From an uncultured Acetatifactor sp. (lineage in GTDB: Bacteria > Bacillota > Clostridia > Lachnospirales > Lachnospiraceae): a DNA stretch of 64,000 nt. The stretch's first letter is position 1, and the number at the start of each line of letters is the position of its first letter. Below, piece by piece: positions 10,824 to 16,764 of the stretch. Position numbers and translations under genes: made by a program. Under the pieces are notes generated by a model that worked only from the letters and a program-made list of their open reading frames with translations, ran no database searches and had not been told where the DNA came from. The stretch covers positions 1 to 64,000 of the forward strand of contig CANREV010000004.1 of NCBI GenBank assembly GCA_947629645.1, written 5' to 3'.

Positions 10824-11537
10824 ATGGGCAATTATCTGTTTATTTCGGATGCGGCAAAAGAAGTCAAGGTGGAGAGCCATGTCTTGCGTTATTGGGAGGA
10901 AGAACTTCATCTTCCTATAAAACGCAATGAGCTGGGTCACCGCTATTACACGGAAGAGGATGTGGAGCGTTTTAAGCAGATTAAAGGAATGAAAGAAAGG
11001 GGACTTCAGTTGAAGGCGATTAAAATGATTTTGAAAGACGGAAAATTGGACATGTTGGTACCCAAAGAAGCAAACGCAGAGGAAACGCAGCAGGATCATG
11101 AGGAAGGAAGTATGCCGATCGATATTGTAGAGCCGAAGGAGAACGTTGTATCTGCTGACAATAAGGAAGAAAAATCCAGACGGCTGCAATGGCTGCTGCA
11201 ACAGTTGATCCGAGAGACGCTTCAGGAAAACAATAGTGCCCTTTGCCGGGAGATTAAGGAAAGCGTTGTGAAGGAGCTGGATTATCAATTTAGAATGCAG
11301 GAAGAAAGGGATGAAGCCAGGGATCAATTATTGGCTCAGCAGAACGAAGAACATTACCGCAGGATGGACGAGCTTCTGCGCAAAAAAGCCAGGAGAAAAG
11401 GCCCCAGAGAGAAAGCCGCAAAAGAGAAAGGCTCTAAGGAGGATGTTTCCGTTAAGGAAATAGAACAGGTTACTGCGGAGAATACCGATCAGGCGGATAA
11501 AACGAAGGAAAAAAAGAAAAGGCACTTCATTTTTTGA
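10824..11537 (+). CDS. MerR-family regulator with long charged coiled-coil tail
   Basis: A 237-residue protein. Residues about 4-72 form a MerR winged helix (FISDAAKEVKVESHVLRYW, HRYYTEEDVERFKQIKGM). The rest is a glutamate- and lysine-rich predicted coiled coil without an effector-binding domain, ending in a lysine-rich tail. Such RacA-like MerR proteins may be DNA-architectural rather than metal-sensing; this is inference. The ATG at 10824 has AGGAG upstream. The stop codon lies inside the terminator hairpin of the converging pyruvate formate-lyase locus. Confidence 0.8.
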   Translation: MGNYLFISDAAKEVKVESHVLRYWEEELHLPIKRNELGHRYYTEEDVERFKQIKGMKERGLQLKAIKMILKDGKLDMLVPKEANAEETQQDHEEGSMPIDIVEPKENVVSADNKEEKSRRLQWLLQQLIRETLQENNSALCREIKESVVKELDYQFRMQEERDEARDQLLAQQNEEHYRRMDELLRKKARRKGPREKAAKEKGSKEDVSVKEIEQVTAENTDQADKTKEKKKRHFIF

Positions 11538-11544
11538 AGTGCCT
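11514..11544 (-). terminator. Terminator of the ferredoxin/pfl locus
   Basis: A 10-bp stem (AGGCACTTCA at 11520-11529, TGAAGTGCCT at 11535-11544) with a five-base loop. On the minus strand it is followed by TTTTCTTTTTTT. It overlaps the 3' end and stop codon of the merR-type gene on the other strand. Confidence 0.85.
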
Positions 11545-11600
11545 CGCGCTTTGTGTATGAGTTCCTATCAGGATGCCCCAGGACGGGGATCCAACATTGC

Positions 11601-11771
11601 TTATGCCTGGGAGATAGCTCCGGTGGGGCACTGGCCTGCGCAGGAACCGCAATCGATACATTTTTCCGCATCGATTTCAAACTTACCATCGCCCATGCTG
11701 ATCGCACCAACAGGACATTGGCTCTCGCATGCGCCACAAGCTACACAAGCATCACCAATTGCATATGCCAT
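11601..11771 (-). CDS. 2[4Fe-4S] ferredoxin
   Basis: A 56-residue clostridial-type ferredoxin. The two CxxCxxCxxxCP motifs (CVACGACESQCP and CIDCGSCAGQCP, cysteines at 9, 12, 15, 19 and 38, 41, 44, 48) bind two [4Fe-4S] clusters. The ATG follows AAGGAGG. It lies downstream of pflA with its own promoter and could supply electrons to the activase, which needs a low-potential donor; it may equally serve general fermentation. Confidence 0.95.
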   Translation of the reverse strand: MAYAIGDACVACGACESQCPVGAISMGDGKFEIDAEKCIDCGSCAGQCPTGAISQA

Positions 11772-11819
11772 AATATTATCCTCCTTACATTTGATACAAA
11801 TTTATCAATATCTGTAACT

Positions 11820-11848
11820 ATTGTAATATAAAAAGAAGCCAAATACAA
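11820..11848 (-). promoter_or_regulatory. Ferredoxin promoter
   Basis: On the minus strand TTGTAT (11848-11843), 17 bp, TACAAT (11825-11820). A perfect 12-base palindrome CATAAATTTATG lies just upstream at about 11859-11870 and could be an operator. Confidence 0.6.
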
Positions 11849-11891
11849 GGTTTATTTCATAAATTTATGAGATACATCACAACAGAAAGGT

Positions 11892-12650
11892 TCATTGCCC
11901 CGTTTCGCTGCGTCTTTTTTTAATGCCGTTCAGAATGACTTGCTTTTTATCTAAGAGTTTCGTCTTGTCCATAGGGGGAACGCCGGCCAGTTTGTATTTC
12001 ATGCCCAGCTTTTTATATTTTGCTTCTCCCATGGTGTGATAAGGCAATACATCAAGGGCTTTCAGATTGCTGAATTGACCAATAAAATATCCCAGCTCAA
12101 AAAGATATTTATCATCGTCCGTGATGCCCGGTACCACCACATGGCGGATCCACATATCCACATGCTTTTCATTCAGATACTCTGCGAATTTCAGAATATT
12201 TGTGTTCGGCTGCTGGGTCAGTTCCTTGTGTTTCTCGGGATCAATATGCTTGATGTCCAGCATTACAAGATCCGTCATTCCCATGAGCTTATCCAGTTTT
12301 TCGCGCTGGGCGGCATTATCGGGATTGTATGCGATGCCGGAAGAGTCGATGCAGGTGTGAATCCCCTTCTTTTTGGCCAGGGTAAACAAATCGATCAAAA
12401 AATCTATCTGCATCAAAGGTTCGCCGCCGGTGACGGTCAGGCCGCCGCCGTTTGCGTAAAACGGGCTGTTGCGTTCATATTGTTCGATAATATAGGAAGG
12501 CTCCATCAATGTGCCCGCGTTCATTTCCCAAGTGTCGGGATTATGGCAGTAGGCACAGCGCATGGGACAGCCCTGCACAAAGACCACGAAACGTGTTCCG
12601 GGACCGTCCACAGTGCCGAAACTTTCCAGTGAGTGAATTCTTCCTTGCAT
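11892..12650 (-). CDS. pflA: Pyruvate formate-lyase activating enzyme
   Basis: A 252-residue radical-SAM enzyme that abstracts hydrogen from the glycyl residue of pyruvate formate-lyase. Cys28, Cys32 and Cys35 (CPMRCAYC) form the CxxxCxxC cluster motif. GGGLTVTGGEPLMQ, LVMLDIKHID and the DVLPYHTMGEAKY end are typical of PflA. AAAGGAG precedes the ATG. It lies downstream of the separate glycyl-radical gene, past an internal terminator, so its expression may be lower than that of the enzyme subunits. Confidence 0.96.
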   Translation of the reverse strand: MQGRIHSLESFGTVDGPGTRFVVFVQGCPMRCAYCHNPDTWEMNAGTLMEPSYIIEQYERNSPFYANGGGLTVTGGEPLMQIDFLIDLFTLAKKKGIHTCIDSSGIAYNPDNAAQREKLDKLMGMTDLVMLDIKHIDPEKHKELTQQPNTNILKFAEYLNEKHVDMWIRHVVVPGITDDDKYLFELGYFIGQFSNLKALDVLPYHTMGEAKYKKLGMKYKLAGVPPMDKTKLLDKKQVILNGIKKRRSETGQ

Positions 12651-12692
12651 AGTTTGCTCCTTTCACAGTAATCATAAAAGGCCGATGGAGTA

Positions 12693-12725
12693 GAAAAGCC
12701 CGCTCGATGTTCTCGAGCGGGCTTT
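12693..12725 (-). terminator. Internal terminator between glycyl-radical gene and pflA
   Basis: A perfect 13-bp stem (12695-12707 and 12713-12725) with a five-base loop. On the minus strand four T residues follow, then CTA. The short tail suggests partial read-through into pflA. Confidence 0.8.
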
Positions 12726-12746
12726 GAACCATGTCCTGATCAGAAC

Positions 12747-12989
12747 TCAGATGGCCTCATGGAAGGTACGGGAGATAACATCAGCCTGCTGTTCGGGAGT
12801 CAACTTGATAAAGTTAACTGCGTATCCGGATACACGGATCGTAAGCTGAGGATAATTCTCCGGATGCTTCTGGGCATCCAACAGAGTATCTCTGTTCAAA
12901 ACATTTACATTGAGATGATGTCCGCCTTTGGTTGCGTAACCATCCAATAAGTTTACAAGGTTATTAACCTGAGCTTCACTTGCTGCCAT
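12747..12989 (-). CDS. Stand-alone glycyl-radical domain of pyruvate formate-lyase
   Basis: This 80-residue protein is the C-terminal glycyl-radical domain alone. It has the linker [19 protein letters not shown], the helix preceding the radical loop ([13 protein letters not shown]), the radical loop RVSGYAV with Gly55, and the terminal helix ([14 protein letters not shown]). These match the last 80 residues of full-length PFL. It has its own AAGGAGG site and ATG. The catalytic chain encoded upstream lacks exactly this part, so this is probably an obligate subunit rather than only a repair part like GrcA/YfiD or phage Y06I. Whether it can be exchanged after oxygen damage is untested. Confidence 0.93.
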
Positions 12990-13037
12990 AATTATATCCT
13001 CCTTATTATTTTAATTTACATTGGTGGCGGGACCGGA

Positions 13038-13244
13038 TTAGCGATAATCGTCCAATCCCTCATGAAGAGTAGGTACACTGCAGGCCAACGGTGTCCTGGA
13101 ACAGTCCGTACAGCCCATTGTCTGAACGCTTTTTGACTGACTTGTCTGCTGGTCGCTATAGTCTACATTGACGTGTCCTACTCCGTCATTCATACCGGAA
13201 TCCAACATTTTAACAAGATCCTCAATCATACTTTTTTCGTCCAT
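13038..13244 (-). CDS. 68-residue cysteine-containing protein between the split PFL genes
   Basis: The N-terminal 30 residues (IEDLVKMLDSGMNDGVGHVN) align with the linker that starts the glycyl-radical domain ([19 protein letters not shown]). The radical loop is absent. Instead the C-terminus carries three cysteines (Cys45, 48 and 55 in MGCTDCSRTPLACSVPTLHE). A GAAGGAGAG site precedes the ATG, and it lies 49 bp after the catalytic gene and 48 bp before the radical-domain gene. I recognise no named family. It could dock on the same surface of the catalytic chain as the radical domain, perhaps as a placeholder, shield or metal/thiol adaptor; this is inference. Confidence 0.8.
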   Translation of the reverse strand: MDEKSMIEDLVKMLDSGMNDGVGHVNVDYSDQQTSQSKSVQTMGCTDCSRTPLACSVPTLHEGLDDYR

Positions 13245-13293
13245 CGTATATTCTCTCCTTCCTAATATACTATATTATATATCAGGAATTTTG

Positions 13294-15333
13294 TTATTTA
13301 TTCAGGTCTAATTCGATATCGCCAGCGAATACCTTATCCTCTTTTCCGAGAGCTCCGGGAATGATGGTGAAGGTATTGGAGATACCATCCTGCGCATCAT
13401 TGAAAGGAAGCTTAGAAACGGAAGCCAGAGATGCTACTGCACCGTGGGTGTCACGTCCATGCATAGGGTTAGCGCCGGGTGCGAAAGGCTGACCTTTCTT
13501 ACGTCCATCGGGGGTATTACCGGTAGCCTTACCGTAAGTAACGTTAGAGGTAATGGTCAGGATGGAAGTGGTAGGGATACCGTTTCTGTAAGTATGATGA
13601 CGTCTGATTGCAGTCATGAACTTGTGTACGATCTCCTGAGCGATCTCATCTACGCGGTCATCATCATTACCATACTTCGGGAAATCACCGGTGGTCTTAA
13701 AGTCAACAATGATGCCGTCCTCATCGCGGACAACCTCAACCTTTGCATACTTGATTGCGGAAAGGGAGTCTGCAACGATGGAAAGACCTGCGACACCGGT
13801 TGCAAAATATCTCTTGACATCTCTGTCATGAAGCGCCATCTCTGCTCTCTCATAGCAGTATTTGTCATGCATATAATGGATAATGTTCAGAGTGTTTACA
13901 TAAACATCTGCCTGCCACTCCAGCATATCCATGAATTTGCTCATTACATCGTCATAGTCGAGCACATCGCCGACAACAGGACGATACTTAGGACCAACCT
14001 GTTTCTTGGTAACTTCGTCAACACCGCCGTTCAAAGCGTACAGCAGACATTTAGCTACGTTAGCGCGAGCGCCGAAGAACTGCATTTCCTTACCGATTAC
14101 CATGGAAGATACGCAGCAGGCGATGCCATAATCGTCACCATGAACTACTCTCATCAGATCATCGTTCTCATACTGGATGGAAGAGGTCTGGATGGAAGTC
14201 TTAGCACAGAATCTCTTGAAATTCTCGGGAAGTCTGGTGGACCAGAGCACGGTCAGGTTAGGCTCGGGTGCGGGTCCCAGGTTGTAAAGGGTATTCAGGT
14301 AACGGAAGCTCATCTTGGTCACCATATGACGTCCGTCAATACCAACGCCGCCCAGGGATTCGGTTACCCAAACGGGATCGCCTGCAAAAATCTGGTTATA
14401 CTCAGGAGTGCGGGCGAATTTAATGCAGCGAAGCTTCATGATAAAGTGATCTACGAATTCCTGAATCTGCTCCTCGGTGAAAGTACCGTTTGCAAGATCT
14501 CTCTCTGCGTAGATATCAAGGAAGGTGGAAGTACGTCCAAGAGACATAGCGGCGCCGTTCTGCTCCTTTACTGCGCACAGATATCCAAAGTATACTGCCT
14601 GGATCGCTTCCTTCACATTGGTTGCGGGATTGGAGATATCGCAGCCGTAGGATGCAGCCATTTCCTTCATCAGCTTCAGAGCGGTCATCTGCTCGGAAAG
14701 TTCCTCACGAAGACGGATAACGTCATCAGTCATAACGCGGCCGGTAGAATCTTTCTGCGCCTGCTTATCCTCAAGCAGTCTGTCGATACCGTACAGGGCT
14801 ACACGTCTGTAGTCGCCAATGATACGTCCACGGCCATAAGCATCGGGAAGACCGGTAATGATATGGGAAGAGCGGCAAGCTCTCATCTCCTGGTTGTAGG
14901 CATCGAAACAGCCTGCATTGTGTGTTTTTCTGTGAATGGTGAAGAACTCGGAAATCTCAGGATCTACTTCATAACCATTGTCGGAGCAAGCCTTCTCCGC
15001 CATACGGATACCGCCGTAAGGCTGCAGGGATCTCTTGAAAGGCTTATCAGTCTGGAAACCTACGATAGTCTCTTTGCTCTTGTCAAGGTATCCGGGGCCG
15101 TGAGAATTAATGGTAGAAATTACCTTGGTATCCATATCAAGGACACCGCCGGCTTCTCTCTCCTTTTTCTGCAGGTCGAGTACCATTGCCCATAAGTCCT
15201 TTGTGTTCTGGGTAGGTCCGGCCAGGAAAGAATCATCACCGTCATAAGGATGATAGTTTCTCTGGATGAAGTCGCGAACGTTGACTTCTTTGTCCCATTT
15301 GCCACGTACGAAATCTGTCTCAATTGGTTTCAT
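13294..15333 (-). CDS. pflB: Pyruvate formate-lyase catalytic chain lacking the glycyl-radical domain
   Basis: This 679-residue chain matches PFL from its N-terminus ([17 protein letters not shown]) to [14 protein letters not shown] and then stops, about 80 residues short of the usual 740-760. The active-site pair is Cys406-Cys407 (GIACCVSSM). The missing part is encoded two genes downstream as an 80-residue protein. The end is a clean TAA followed by new ribosome sites and genes, not a frameshift. I start at ATG 15333, behind TAGGAGGTAATTT; the frame open to 15432 is leader. PFL converts pyruvate and CoA to acetyl-CoA and formate. A strong promoter lies at 15404-15432. Confidence 0.95.
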
Positions 15334-15403
15334 TTTGAAATTACCTCCTATAAAATTTGAATTAGTTATGATAGCTGAAATGTTACCGCTAATCCTTAAA
15401 AAT

Positions 15404-15432
15404 ATTATATGAAAAACGTCTCTCACAGTCAA
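15404..15432 (-). promoter_or_regulatory. pflB promoter
   Basis: On the minus strand TTGACT (15432-15427), a 17-bp spacer, and a perfect TATAAT (15409-15404). This gives a leader of about 65 bases before the ATG. Confidence 0.85.
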
Positions 15433-15498
15433 GAACTGAACGTGTACTTTTTTGCATACATGTGACAGTTAAGCCTTCGGCAAAACTGCCGTATGTAT

Positions 15499-15628
15499 GC
15501 ACATAAAACGCGCAAAAAATGTGTTTTGGCGCCTGTATCCCTCGCAAAATCGCACAGAGACGCAATTTTGACTTCGCGGTGCCGTATGGCTGAACTGTTA
15601 TGCATGCATCATCACGGTTCAGCCATAA
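15499..15628. repeat. Dispersed intergenic repeat, copy A
   Basis: 15499-15542 is alike to 40123-40167. 15572-15590 (CTTCGCGGTGCCGTATGGC) is identical to the complement of 38077-38095. The unit ends in an inverted repeat, TATGGCTGAAC (15586-15596) and its complement near 15618-15628. The spacer between pflB and the DUF1858 gene consists mostly of this repeat and the two divergent promoters. Confidence 0.6.
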
Positions 15629-15659
15629 AAAAGGAGCCATAAAAATTACCCGGTATAGC

Positions 15660-15688
15660 TTGTCAGGATTCGGGGAATGTATTATACT
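15660..15688 (+). promoter_or_regulatory. Promoter of the DUF1858 gene
   Basis: TTGTCA (15660-15665), 17 bp, TATACT (15683-15688). Confidence 0.75.
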
Positions 15689-15753
15689 ATGCAAGAGATG
15701 GAACAGATGGTATCCTGCCGTATGAGGCGGGAAAGATAGAAAGGAGATTCATC

Positions 15754-15945
15754 ATGAGCGGAATTACAAGGGATATGACGATCGGGGAAATCTTAAGCTC
15801 CAATCCTGATGTGGCGCCTGTGTTATTAGACGCCGGTATGCATTGTCTTGGTTGCCCTTCATCACAGGCGGAGACATTGGAAGAGGCTGCTATGGTGCAT
15901 GGAATTGACATAGATGCCCTGATGTCGGCGATTGAAGCGTTATAA
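15754..15945 (+). CDS. DUF1858 protein
   Basis: A 63-residue protein with the DUF1858 pattern: [29 protein letters not shown], including the CxxC-type pair, and a short helical C-terminus. Stand-alone DUF1858 proteins with this HCLGC motif are thought to be redox-active through the cysteine pair; partners are unknown. AAAGGAG precedes the ATG. It diverges from pflB and has its own promoter and terminator. Confidence 0.9.
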
Positions 15946-15960
15946 GGCTGATGCGGAATG

Positions 15961-16001
15961 AAAAAGTCCCCGGTCTCCTGTTTGGGAGACGGGGACTTTT
16001 T
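15961..16001 (+). terminator. Terminator, bidirectional
   Basis: A long stem (AAAAAGTCCCC with a bulge, GTCTCC paired to GGAGAC, GGGGACTTTTT) ends in T residues on the plus strand and A/T symmetry on the minus. It serves the DUF1858 gene and probably also the converging mecA gene. Confidence 0.9.
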
Positions 16002-16026
16002 ATGCTGTCCGAAGCAGCTTGAAAAT

Positions 16027-16764
16027 TCAGGCATTCCCCAGAGACTGTACCGCGTTGGCGGCAATTAAAGTCTCATAGTGTTCCGCAAGGAATGTGGTGC
16101 TGGCGGGAATGGAGCGCTGCAATGCACCGTATTCGGAGGCGATATTGCAGGATCTGTCGAAAGATTCCCTGGAATCTTCCTGCTGTGTCAGCTGCAGCAG
16201 ATATCTGCCGGAGCTTTCGTCTTTGTATAATGTGCTGGCACTGCGGTAATGAGGTGCGATGATGGCGGCCATCTCCATGATTCGTGACAGGGATTCAAAC
16301 AGGAAAATCCTGGTGCGGAGCGGGGGAGCGCTTTCGGGCGCATCGTTTTTTGCACCTGCGCCGTCCGAAGATCCCGCAATCTCCGGCTGGTCTGTCTGGA
16401 GCTTGCGGAAGAGGTCGAGGACCTCATCTGCAGGCGTGCTGTCTGTTACATCGCTATCATCAAGTTCTTCCGTCACAGACGGGGCAAAACGGGAAAAACG
16501 CGTATCCAGTTCCTCGGGGTCCTCCACCTTCGTGATAATGAGTACAATGCATTCCGCATTGAGCGGGATGGCTTCTATCATAAGGGGGATGTCCTCCGCC
16601 TCAAAACCAAACTCAAAATTTGCCTGACGCATCATATCGCGGAACAAGGTCTTTGCCTTCTCCGTCCCGTAGGCAAGTTCACTGATCTTTAGTTCACGGC
16701 TTGCCAAATCTTCACGGGTCAAAGTACAGCGAATTTGATTTTCATTGACTTTTTCTATTTTCAT
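16027..16764 (-). CDS. mecA: MecA-like adaptor protein
   Basis: A 245-residue adaptor of the MecA/YpbH type. An N-terminal domain (MKIEKVNENQIRCTLTREDL, AEDIPLMIEAIPL) recognises substrates. An acidic, low-complexity linker (about residues 90-150) leads to a C-terminal domain (IFLFESLSRIMEMA) that in this family binds the ClpC unfoldase. In Bacillus it delivers ComK for degradation; targets here are unknown. AGGAAGGG lies upstream of the ATG. Confidence 0.9.
   Translation of the reverse strand: MKIEKVNENQIRCTLTREDLASRELKISELAYGTEKAKTLFRDMMRQANFEFGFEAEDIPLMIEAIPLNAECIVLIITKVEDPEELDTRFSRFAPSVTEELDDSDVTDSTPADEVLDLFRKLQTDQPEIAGSSDGAGAKNDAPESAPPLRTRIFLFESLSRIMEMAAIIAPHYRSASTLYKDESSGRYLLQLTQQEDSRESFDRSCNIASEYGALQRSIPASTTFLAEHYETLIAANAVQSLGNA

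Follow-up and report, generated by a model that had tools for sequence, protein, structure and literature searches.

Pyruvate formate-lyase (PFL) is a main fermentation enzyme in many anaerobes, and among glycyl-radical enzymes those of the 4-hydroxyphenylacetate decarboxylase and benzylsuccinate synthase types have accessory small subunits. The weak point of PFL is the irreversible cleavage of its radical segment by oxygen, as described in PMC8683613. According to the same paper, E. coli PFL that has been artificially cut at residue 695 and combined with YfiD residues 61-127 is still catalytically competent, the binding of truncated YfiD is too weak to measure, PFL residues 696-733 are required for YfiD binding and rescue, and YfiD is proposed to be activated while bound to the damaged PFL (PMC8683613). 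As truncated YfiD is bound so weakly and the loss of 696-733 blocks the rescue, a bare split of the enzyme is not obviously a good one.

The window, the whole analysed stretch of 64,000 nucleotides from a contig of an uncultured Acetatifactor sp. (Lachnospiraceae), contains a PFL locus in which the catalytic chain and the glycyl-radical segment are encoded by different genes (Table 1). The genes are transcribed from the minus strand in the order catalytic chain, middle protein, radical protein, PflA, and a Shine-Dalgarno-like sequence precedes the ATG of each of the first three (3/3).

Table 1. Genes and other elements at the split PFL locus, with positions in the window.
Feature	Position	Strand	Basis or remark
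PFL catalytic chain, 679 aa, Cys406-Cys407, no Gly-bearing segment	13294..15333	minus	TIGR01255, Pfam PFL-like
Middle protein, 68 aa, Cys-Pro tail MGCTDCSRTPLACSVPTLHEGLDD	13038..13244	minus	profile match to radical proteins
Glycyl-radical subunit, 80 aa, RVSGYAV, radical Gly55	12747..12989	minus	NF038360 GrcA3, Pfam Gly_radical
PflA, radical-SAM activating enzyme, 252 aa	11892..12650	minus	TIGR02493, 291.5 bits (cut-off 231.75)
Hairpin in the gap between the radical gene and pflA	12695..12725	minus	folding
Promoter-like site upstream of the catalytic gene	15404..15432	minus	TTGACT-17-TATAAT, 11/12 matches
4Fe-4S ferredoxin, 56 aa, downstream of pflA	11601..11771	minus	
Small DUF1858 protein, divergent, upstream of the PFL gene	15754..15945	plus	
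Open frame, 583 aa, antisense to most of the catalytic gene	13444..15195	plus	

The gap between the radical gene and pflA (12651-12746) has a folding energy of -37.5 kcal/mol (z -4.39), and its hairpin, which is absent from the list of the terminator scan, may act as a partial terminator lowering the expression of the activase. The promoter-like site is weak evidence, as nine such sites were observed in the region versus 8.0 expected; no Rfam family was found within 11000-16500 at the gathering thresholds. The small ferredoxin might serve the activase, and the long antisense frame is taken for a by-product of codon usage.

The catalytic chain scores 1092.1 bits against TIGR01255, the PFL equivalog of NCBIfam (cut-off 994.2), and 725.1 bits against the Pfam PFL-like model. 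It covers positions 5-665 of the 744 positions of TIGR01255, and the radical protein covers 663-743. Alignment to E. coli PFL, as proposed in the first-pass annotation, matches Cys406/Cys407 to Cys418/Cys419 and Gly55 of the radical protein to Gly734. The adjacent cysteine pair of TIGR01255 members is thus present, and it is invariant across the six split chains aligned; the radical glycine, which in TIGR01255 belongs to the same chain, is carried here by the 80-aa protein. The Pfam domain Gly_radical is divided as well, with positions 1-51 closing the catalytic chain and 49-106 falling in the radical protein, hence the large chain lacks the Gly-bearing half and not the whole domain. The first-pass annotation had correctly described a main chain stopping short of the radical glycine, and RVSGYAV with Gly55 on a separate gene two genes downstream, with its own ATG and Shine-Dalgarno-like site. 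Its statement that the main chain has no radical domain at all holds for the Gly-bearing half only, and the true end of the chain is ten residues beyond the one it quoted.

The radical protein is a free-standing member of the family NF038360 GrcA3 (160.9 bits, cut-off 158), and its residues 20-79 align to the YfiD structure 6owr from chain residue 67 on. It is matched by 1539 of 50,697 phage records, by name mostly from enterobacterial phages. The AlphaFold model of the catalytic chain is poor (pLDDT 52.5); a structure comparison with this model recovers PFL and other glycyl-radical enzymes among the matches listed. Catalytic, middle and radical proteins are all under purifying selection: in 20 near relatives, where dS is close to saturation, the median dN/dS is 0.054 in the catalytic chain (C-terminal 300 residues), 0.062 in the radical protein and 0.123 in the middle protein, the last with a finite value in 60 of 190 pairs.

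Among the PFL loci examined (n = 181), 142 are split, 34 fused, 3 cut off by contig ends and 2 undecided. As the loci were partly picked by similarity to the window locus, 142/181 is no estimate of frequency; nor are the loci independent, with 171 different sequences among the 173 catalytic sequences in the tree. The split loci either contain the middle gene (three-gene loci; n = 77 by automatic labels, 79 after a hand check) or lack it (two-gene loci; n = 65 and 63, respectively). The hand check covered nine two-gene loci without a tail Cys, two of which (L188 and L209) revealed a missed middle gene, and the tree-trait, dN/dS, hhalign and tail tests used the automatic labels. Where at least 1400 bases are available downstream of a split locus, pflA follows in 113 of 133 loci (58/74 three-gene and 55/59 two-gene loci).

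In the family survey, a match was found in 130 of 150 genomes and 80 loci were fetched, further genomes with split-like fragments at contig ends being left out; with the window, the family loci (n = 81) comprise 56 split and 25 fused ones. In the class survey (391 genomes), the GrcA3 model matched in 295, of which 21 exceeded its cut-off, and most of the listed matches below the cut-off sit inside full-length frames. All 20 loci fetched from this survey for their free-standing GrcA3-like frames (19 above the cut-off and one below, the window and G060 not being refetched) contain, beside that frame, a PFL ending before the radical segment; in L123 and L130 the PFL frame is open only in part. 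The best 80 further loci from a scan of named genomes include Catonella morbi, Ruminococcus albus, R. bicirculans, Collinsella aerofaciens and Olsenella, as well as Spirochaetota, Melainabacteria and one bin labelled Muribaculaceae, many of these loci coming from metagenome bins whose labels are possibly wrong. Overall, split PFL loci occur in Bacillota, Actinomycetota, Spirochaetota and Melainabacteria.

In a draft of 92 contigs, an assembly error or a frameshift could have broken one continuous gene. This is contradicted by the same break in relatives (142/181 loci), which here takes the place of a resequenced read; moreover, the same layout is seen in independent assemblies, including those of the isolates R. 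bicirculans 80/3 (complete chromosome II) and Catonella morbi, and a whole gene separates the parts. We consider the chance of such an artefact negligible.

If the 80-aa protein were an ordinary GrcA spare part and the truncated chain were decaying, a full-length PFL elsewhere would be expected to do the work. The NCBI name of the family, "autonomous glycyl radical cofactor GrcA3", agrees with this, and a second, full-length PFL1 is listed in 3 of the 56 split-locus genomes of the family survey (G085, G119, G132). In the draft containing the window, which is 99.5% complete, we found three PFL-like matches: the split locus, a PFL2-3-subfamily protein (847 aa), and a more distantly related protein (862 aa) that reaches none of the NCBIfam cut-offs shown. 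Another, weak match to Gly_radical is, judging from its sequence, presumably an anaerobic ribonucleotide reductase. A search of the rest of the genome for a full-length pflB gave no intact PFL1-type enzyme, and hence PFL activity, if any, must come from the split chains; this supports the suggestion of the first-pass annotation that the enzyme would work as two chains. Given also that the catalytic chain is strongly constrained, retains its active-site Cys pair, and is broken identically in so many loci, the 80-aa protein is very unlikely to be a mere spare part.

The middle protein matches GrcA3 alone among the NCBIfam models, and weakly (E 0.03, residues 4-34), with no Pfam family up to E 1 and no PDB chain up to E 10. 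Its homologues form 1771 clusters, and Pfam domains are absent in the 120 of them listed. Its AlphaFold model is poor (pLDDT 57), with a single helix at residues 3-19. In three-gene loci it was told apart from the radical protein by the missing Gly loop; it is encoded before the radical protein in 76 of 77 such loci (automatic labels), L119 being the only one with the radical gene ahead. The front halves of the two proteins are related, which the first-pass annotation had overlooked: comparison of profiles of 77 and 142 diverse rows by hhalign gave a probability of 96.2% and a score of 52.0 (17.0 or less in each of 50 column shuffles), and for profiles built from near-identical sequences the match is weak (probability 14.7%). 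Individual middle proteins score from 3.4 bits against the radical-protein model (median 16.4; 77/77), and as letter-shuffled ones reach up to 8.1 bits (23 of 2310 listed), single weak scores mean little.

The tail of the middle protein has the approximate consensus DC..AC.xPTLxxGLD, its Cys and Pro being invariant in 48 aligned sequences. It shows a relationship to the catalytic-chain tail of two-gene loci, with a probability of 92.3% and a score of 35.0, whereas 200 shuffles gave 15.1 at most. This comparison used 55 of the 56 Cys-bearing tails, excluding the wrongly cut tail of L163; when it was included, 1 of 100 shuffles equalled the real score. After the hand check, a Cys is present near the end of the middle protein in 79/79 three-gene loci (77/77 by automatic labels), and in the catalytic tail in 0/79 three-gene versus 56/63 two-gene loci (56/65 by automatic labels). 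These counts require any Cys and hence are looser than an earlier one by a strict regular expression for the motif, which matched 31/33 middle proteins and 15/23 two-gene tails. On the starred FastTree branches, out of 8 independent pairs, 4 to 6 showed opposite changes of tail and middle gene and none a change in the same direction (median p 0.03, range 0.03-0.125). Thus, most lineages seem to require a Cys tail on either of the two chains.

Seven two-gene loci, including Collinsella, have neither the tail Cys nor the middle gene, as re-read by hand. Among them are L080, L123, L132, L133 and L177. In another of the seven, L087, pflA lies between the catalytic and radical genes, and neither a middle gene nor a tail Cys was found.

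The missing Gly loop, the evident relationship of the front half to the radical protein, about 20 changes of state of the middle gene on the tree, and a dN/dS twice that of the other parts would all be expected if the middle gene were a dying, functionless duplicate of the radical gene. However, this dN/dS is still low, the gene retains its own ribosome site, the Cys and Pro are invariant, and a related tail occurs on the catalytic chain in most loci lacking the middle gene, all of which makes a dying duplicate improbable.

In the tree of 81 rows, the split loci fall into a supported group of 61 rows, which also includes 5 fused rows at two places. The tree of 102 rows is concordant, with PDB 38la next to the split group and 38lb inside it; here the split row L137 is on a long branch with fused enzymes. 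A constraint that groups the split rows together against the fused ones was rejected (log-likelihood 80.5 lower, AU p 0.006) in a test that used 38 of 73 split and 13 of 25 fused rows, excluded L137, and concerned a group picked after viewing the tree. On the tree of 173 rows there are five changes between the split and fused states. The simplest reading of these trees is an old fission followed by at least two re-fusions, the fused enzymes within the split clade looking like re-fused ones; repeated fission is possible, and L137 is perhaps a second fission. Two fused PFLs, L076 and L180, keep a Cys-bearing stretch at the joint, which resembles the remnants of a two-gene tail.

As the fused enzymes sit within the clade of split ones, the split can be undone and possibly confers no benefit. 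The chains could then act as one enzyme without oxygen repair or exchange, the split being a neutral accident with fission and fusion alternating. The fused rows at two places, the rejected constraint and the five changes of state are all consistent with such alternation, whereas the occurrence of the split in several phyla and a dedicated third protein that keeps its Cys tail in every three-gene locus are not what one would expect of it. We regard a neutral accident as a real possibility, though not the one we favour.

The explanation that we favour, with a probability of about 0.8 on the sequence evidence, is that the PFL of this cell is an obligate multi-chain assembly with an exchangeable radical subunit and, in the middle protein, a putative docking or shielding module. 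That the split is common to many relatives suggests a built-in swap of the oxygen-sensitive part. PflA would generate the radical on the 80-aa subunit, at Gly55, and this subunit would fit into the catalytic barrel through its open end; the radical would then pass from Gly55 to the Cys406/Cys407 pair, and the latter would split pyruvate with CoA. If oxygen cut the subunit at Gly55, remaking the 80-residue piece alone would suffice, a replacement that the first-pass annotation had also considered possible in principle. The middle protein may dock beside or in the radical site, aiding the exchange as a recognition element or a plug: its front half corresponds to a part of the 696-733 region of E. 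coli PFL, which hints at a docking or placeholder element. The gene layout, its conservation, the kinship of the parts and the failure to find a second PFL1 in the genome are direct observations, from which we infer docking, radical transfer and the exchange after oxygen damage; the role of the middle protein is the least certain part of this scheme.

A bolder version of this scheme, which we hold to be rather unlikely, is that the middle protein with its Cys-Pro tail (a tail carried by its own chain in three-gene loci and by the catalytic chain in most two-gene loci) is a built-in oxygen response: once the radical subunit had been cut or was missing, this radical-free relative would take its seat in the enzyme, and the thiols of the tail would shield or reduce the active-site Cys pair until a fresh subunit displaced it. 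If so, PFL would be organised so that its radical carrier can be replaced time and again.

The first-pass annotation knew of no described PFL of this form; the view that nothing of the kind is known is not supported, as the radical protein already belongs to the NCBIfam family GrcA3, and two PDB entries named "Formate acetyltransferase", 38la and 38lb, look, from their chain sequences, like natural split-type catalytic chains. Hence, others have already handled chains of the split type. As in the window, both chains lack the radical segment. 38lb, which resembles the two-gene type, aligns to L214, a split chain from Olsenella, through to residue 714 of 716 and with the DCACAADAS tail included. 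38la ends at the same place as the split chain L137, both being bare of a tail (SLGKED and SLGKDD, respectively). The radical and middle proteins of the window match no chain of these two entries, and neither entry is among the 50 matches listed in the structure comparison (library up to 8 April 2026). No paper describing a split PFL was found in the literature searched, a set with bioRxiv and many subscription titles outside its scope, and within this set we found no description of the middle protein, of a Cys tail moving between chains, or of re-fusion. With a natural split in many genera, one can directly test whether an enzyme molecule exchanges its radical carrier in the course of its life, and an unnamed protein family, that of the middle protein, becomes tied to PFL.

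Compared to classical PFL (E. coli PflB, PDB 1h16), the catalytic chain of the window aligns over residues 7-669 and keeps the Cys pair with its surroundings, whereas the Gly-bearing segment is a separate chain. The radical protein is, similarly to GrcA/YfiD and Y06I of phage T4, a free-standing RVSGYAV piece, although it lacks the disordered start of about 60 residues that PMC8683613 describes for YfiD. The E. coli type works beside a full-length PFL, whereas the partner in the window is a PFL without a radical segment of its own. With respect to the artificially cut E. coli enzyme in the same paper (PMC8683613), the natural split amounts to a comparable cut at the gene level. Finally, the family name of NF038360 GrcA3 says spare part, whereas the data for the window point to a constant subunit, and behind the separate annotations "autonomous cofactor" and "formate C-acetyltransferase" there is probably a single enzyme.
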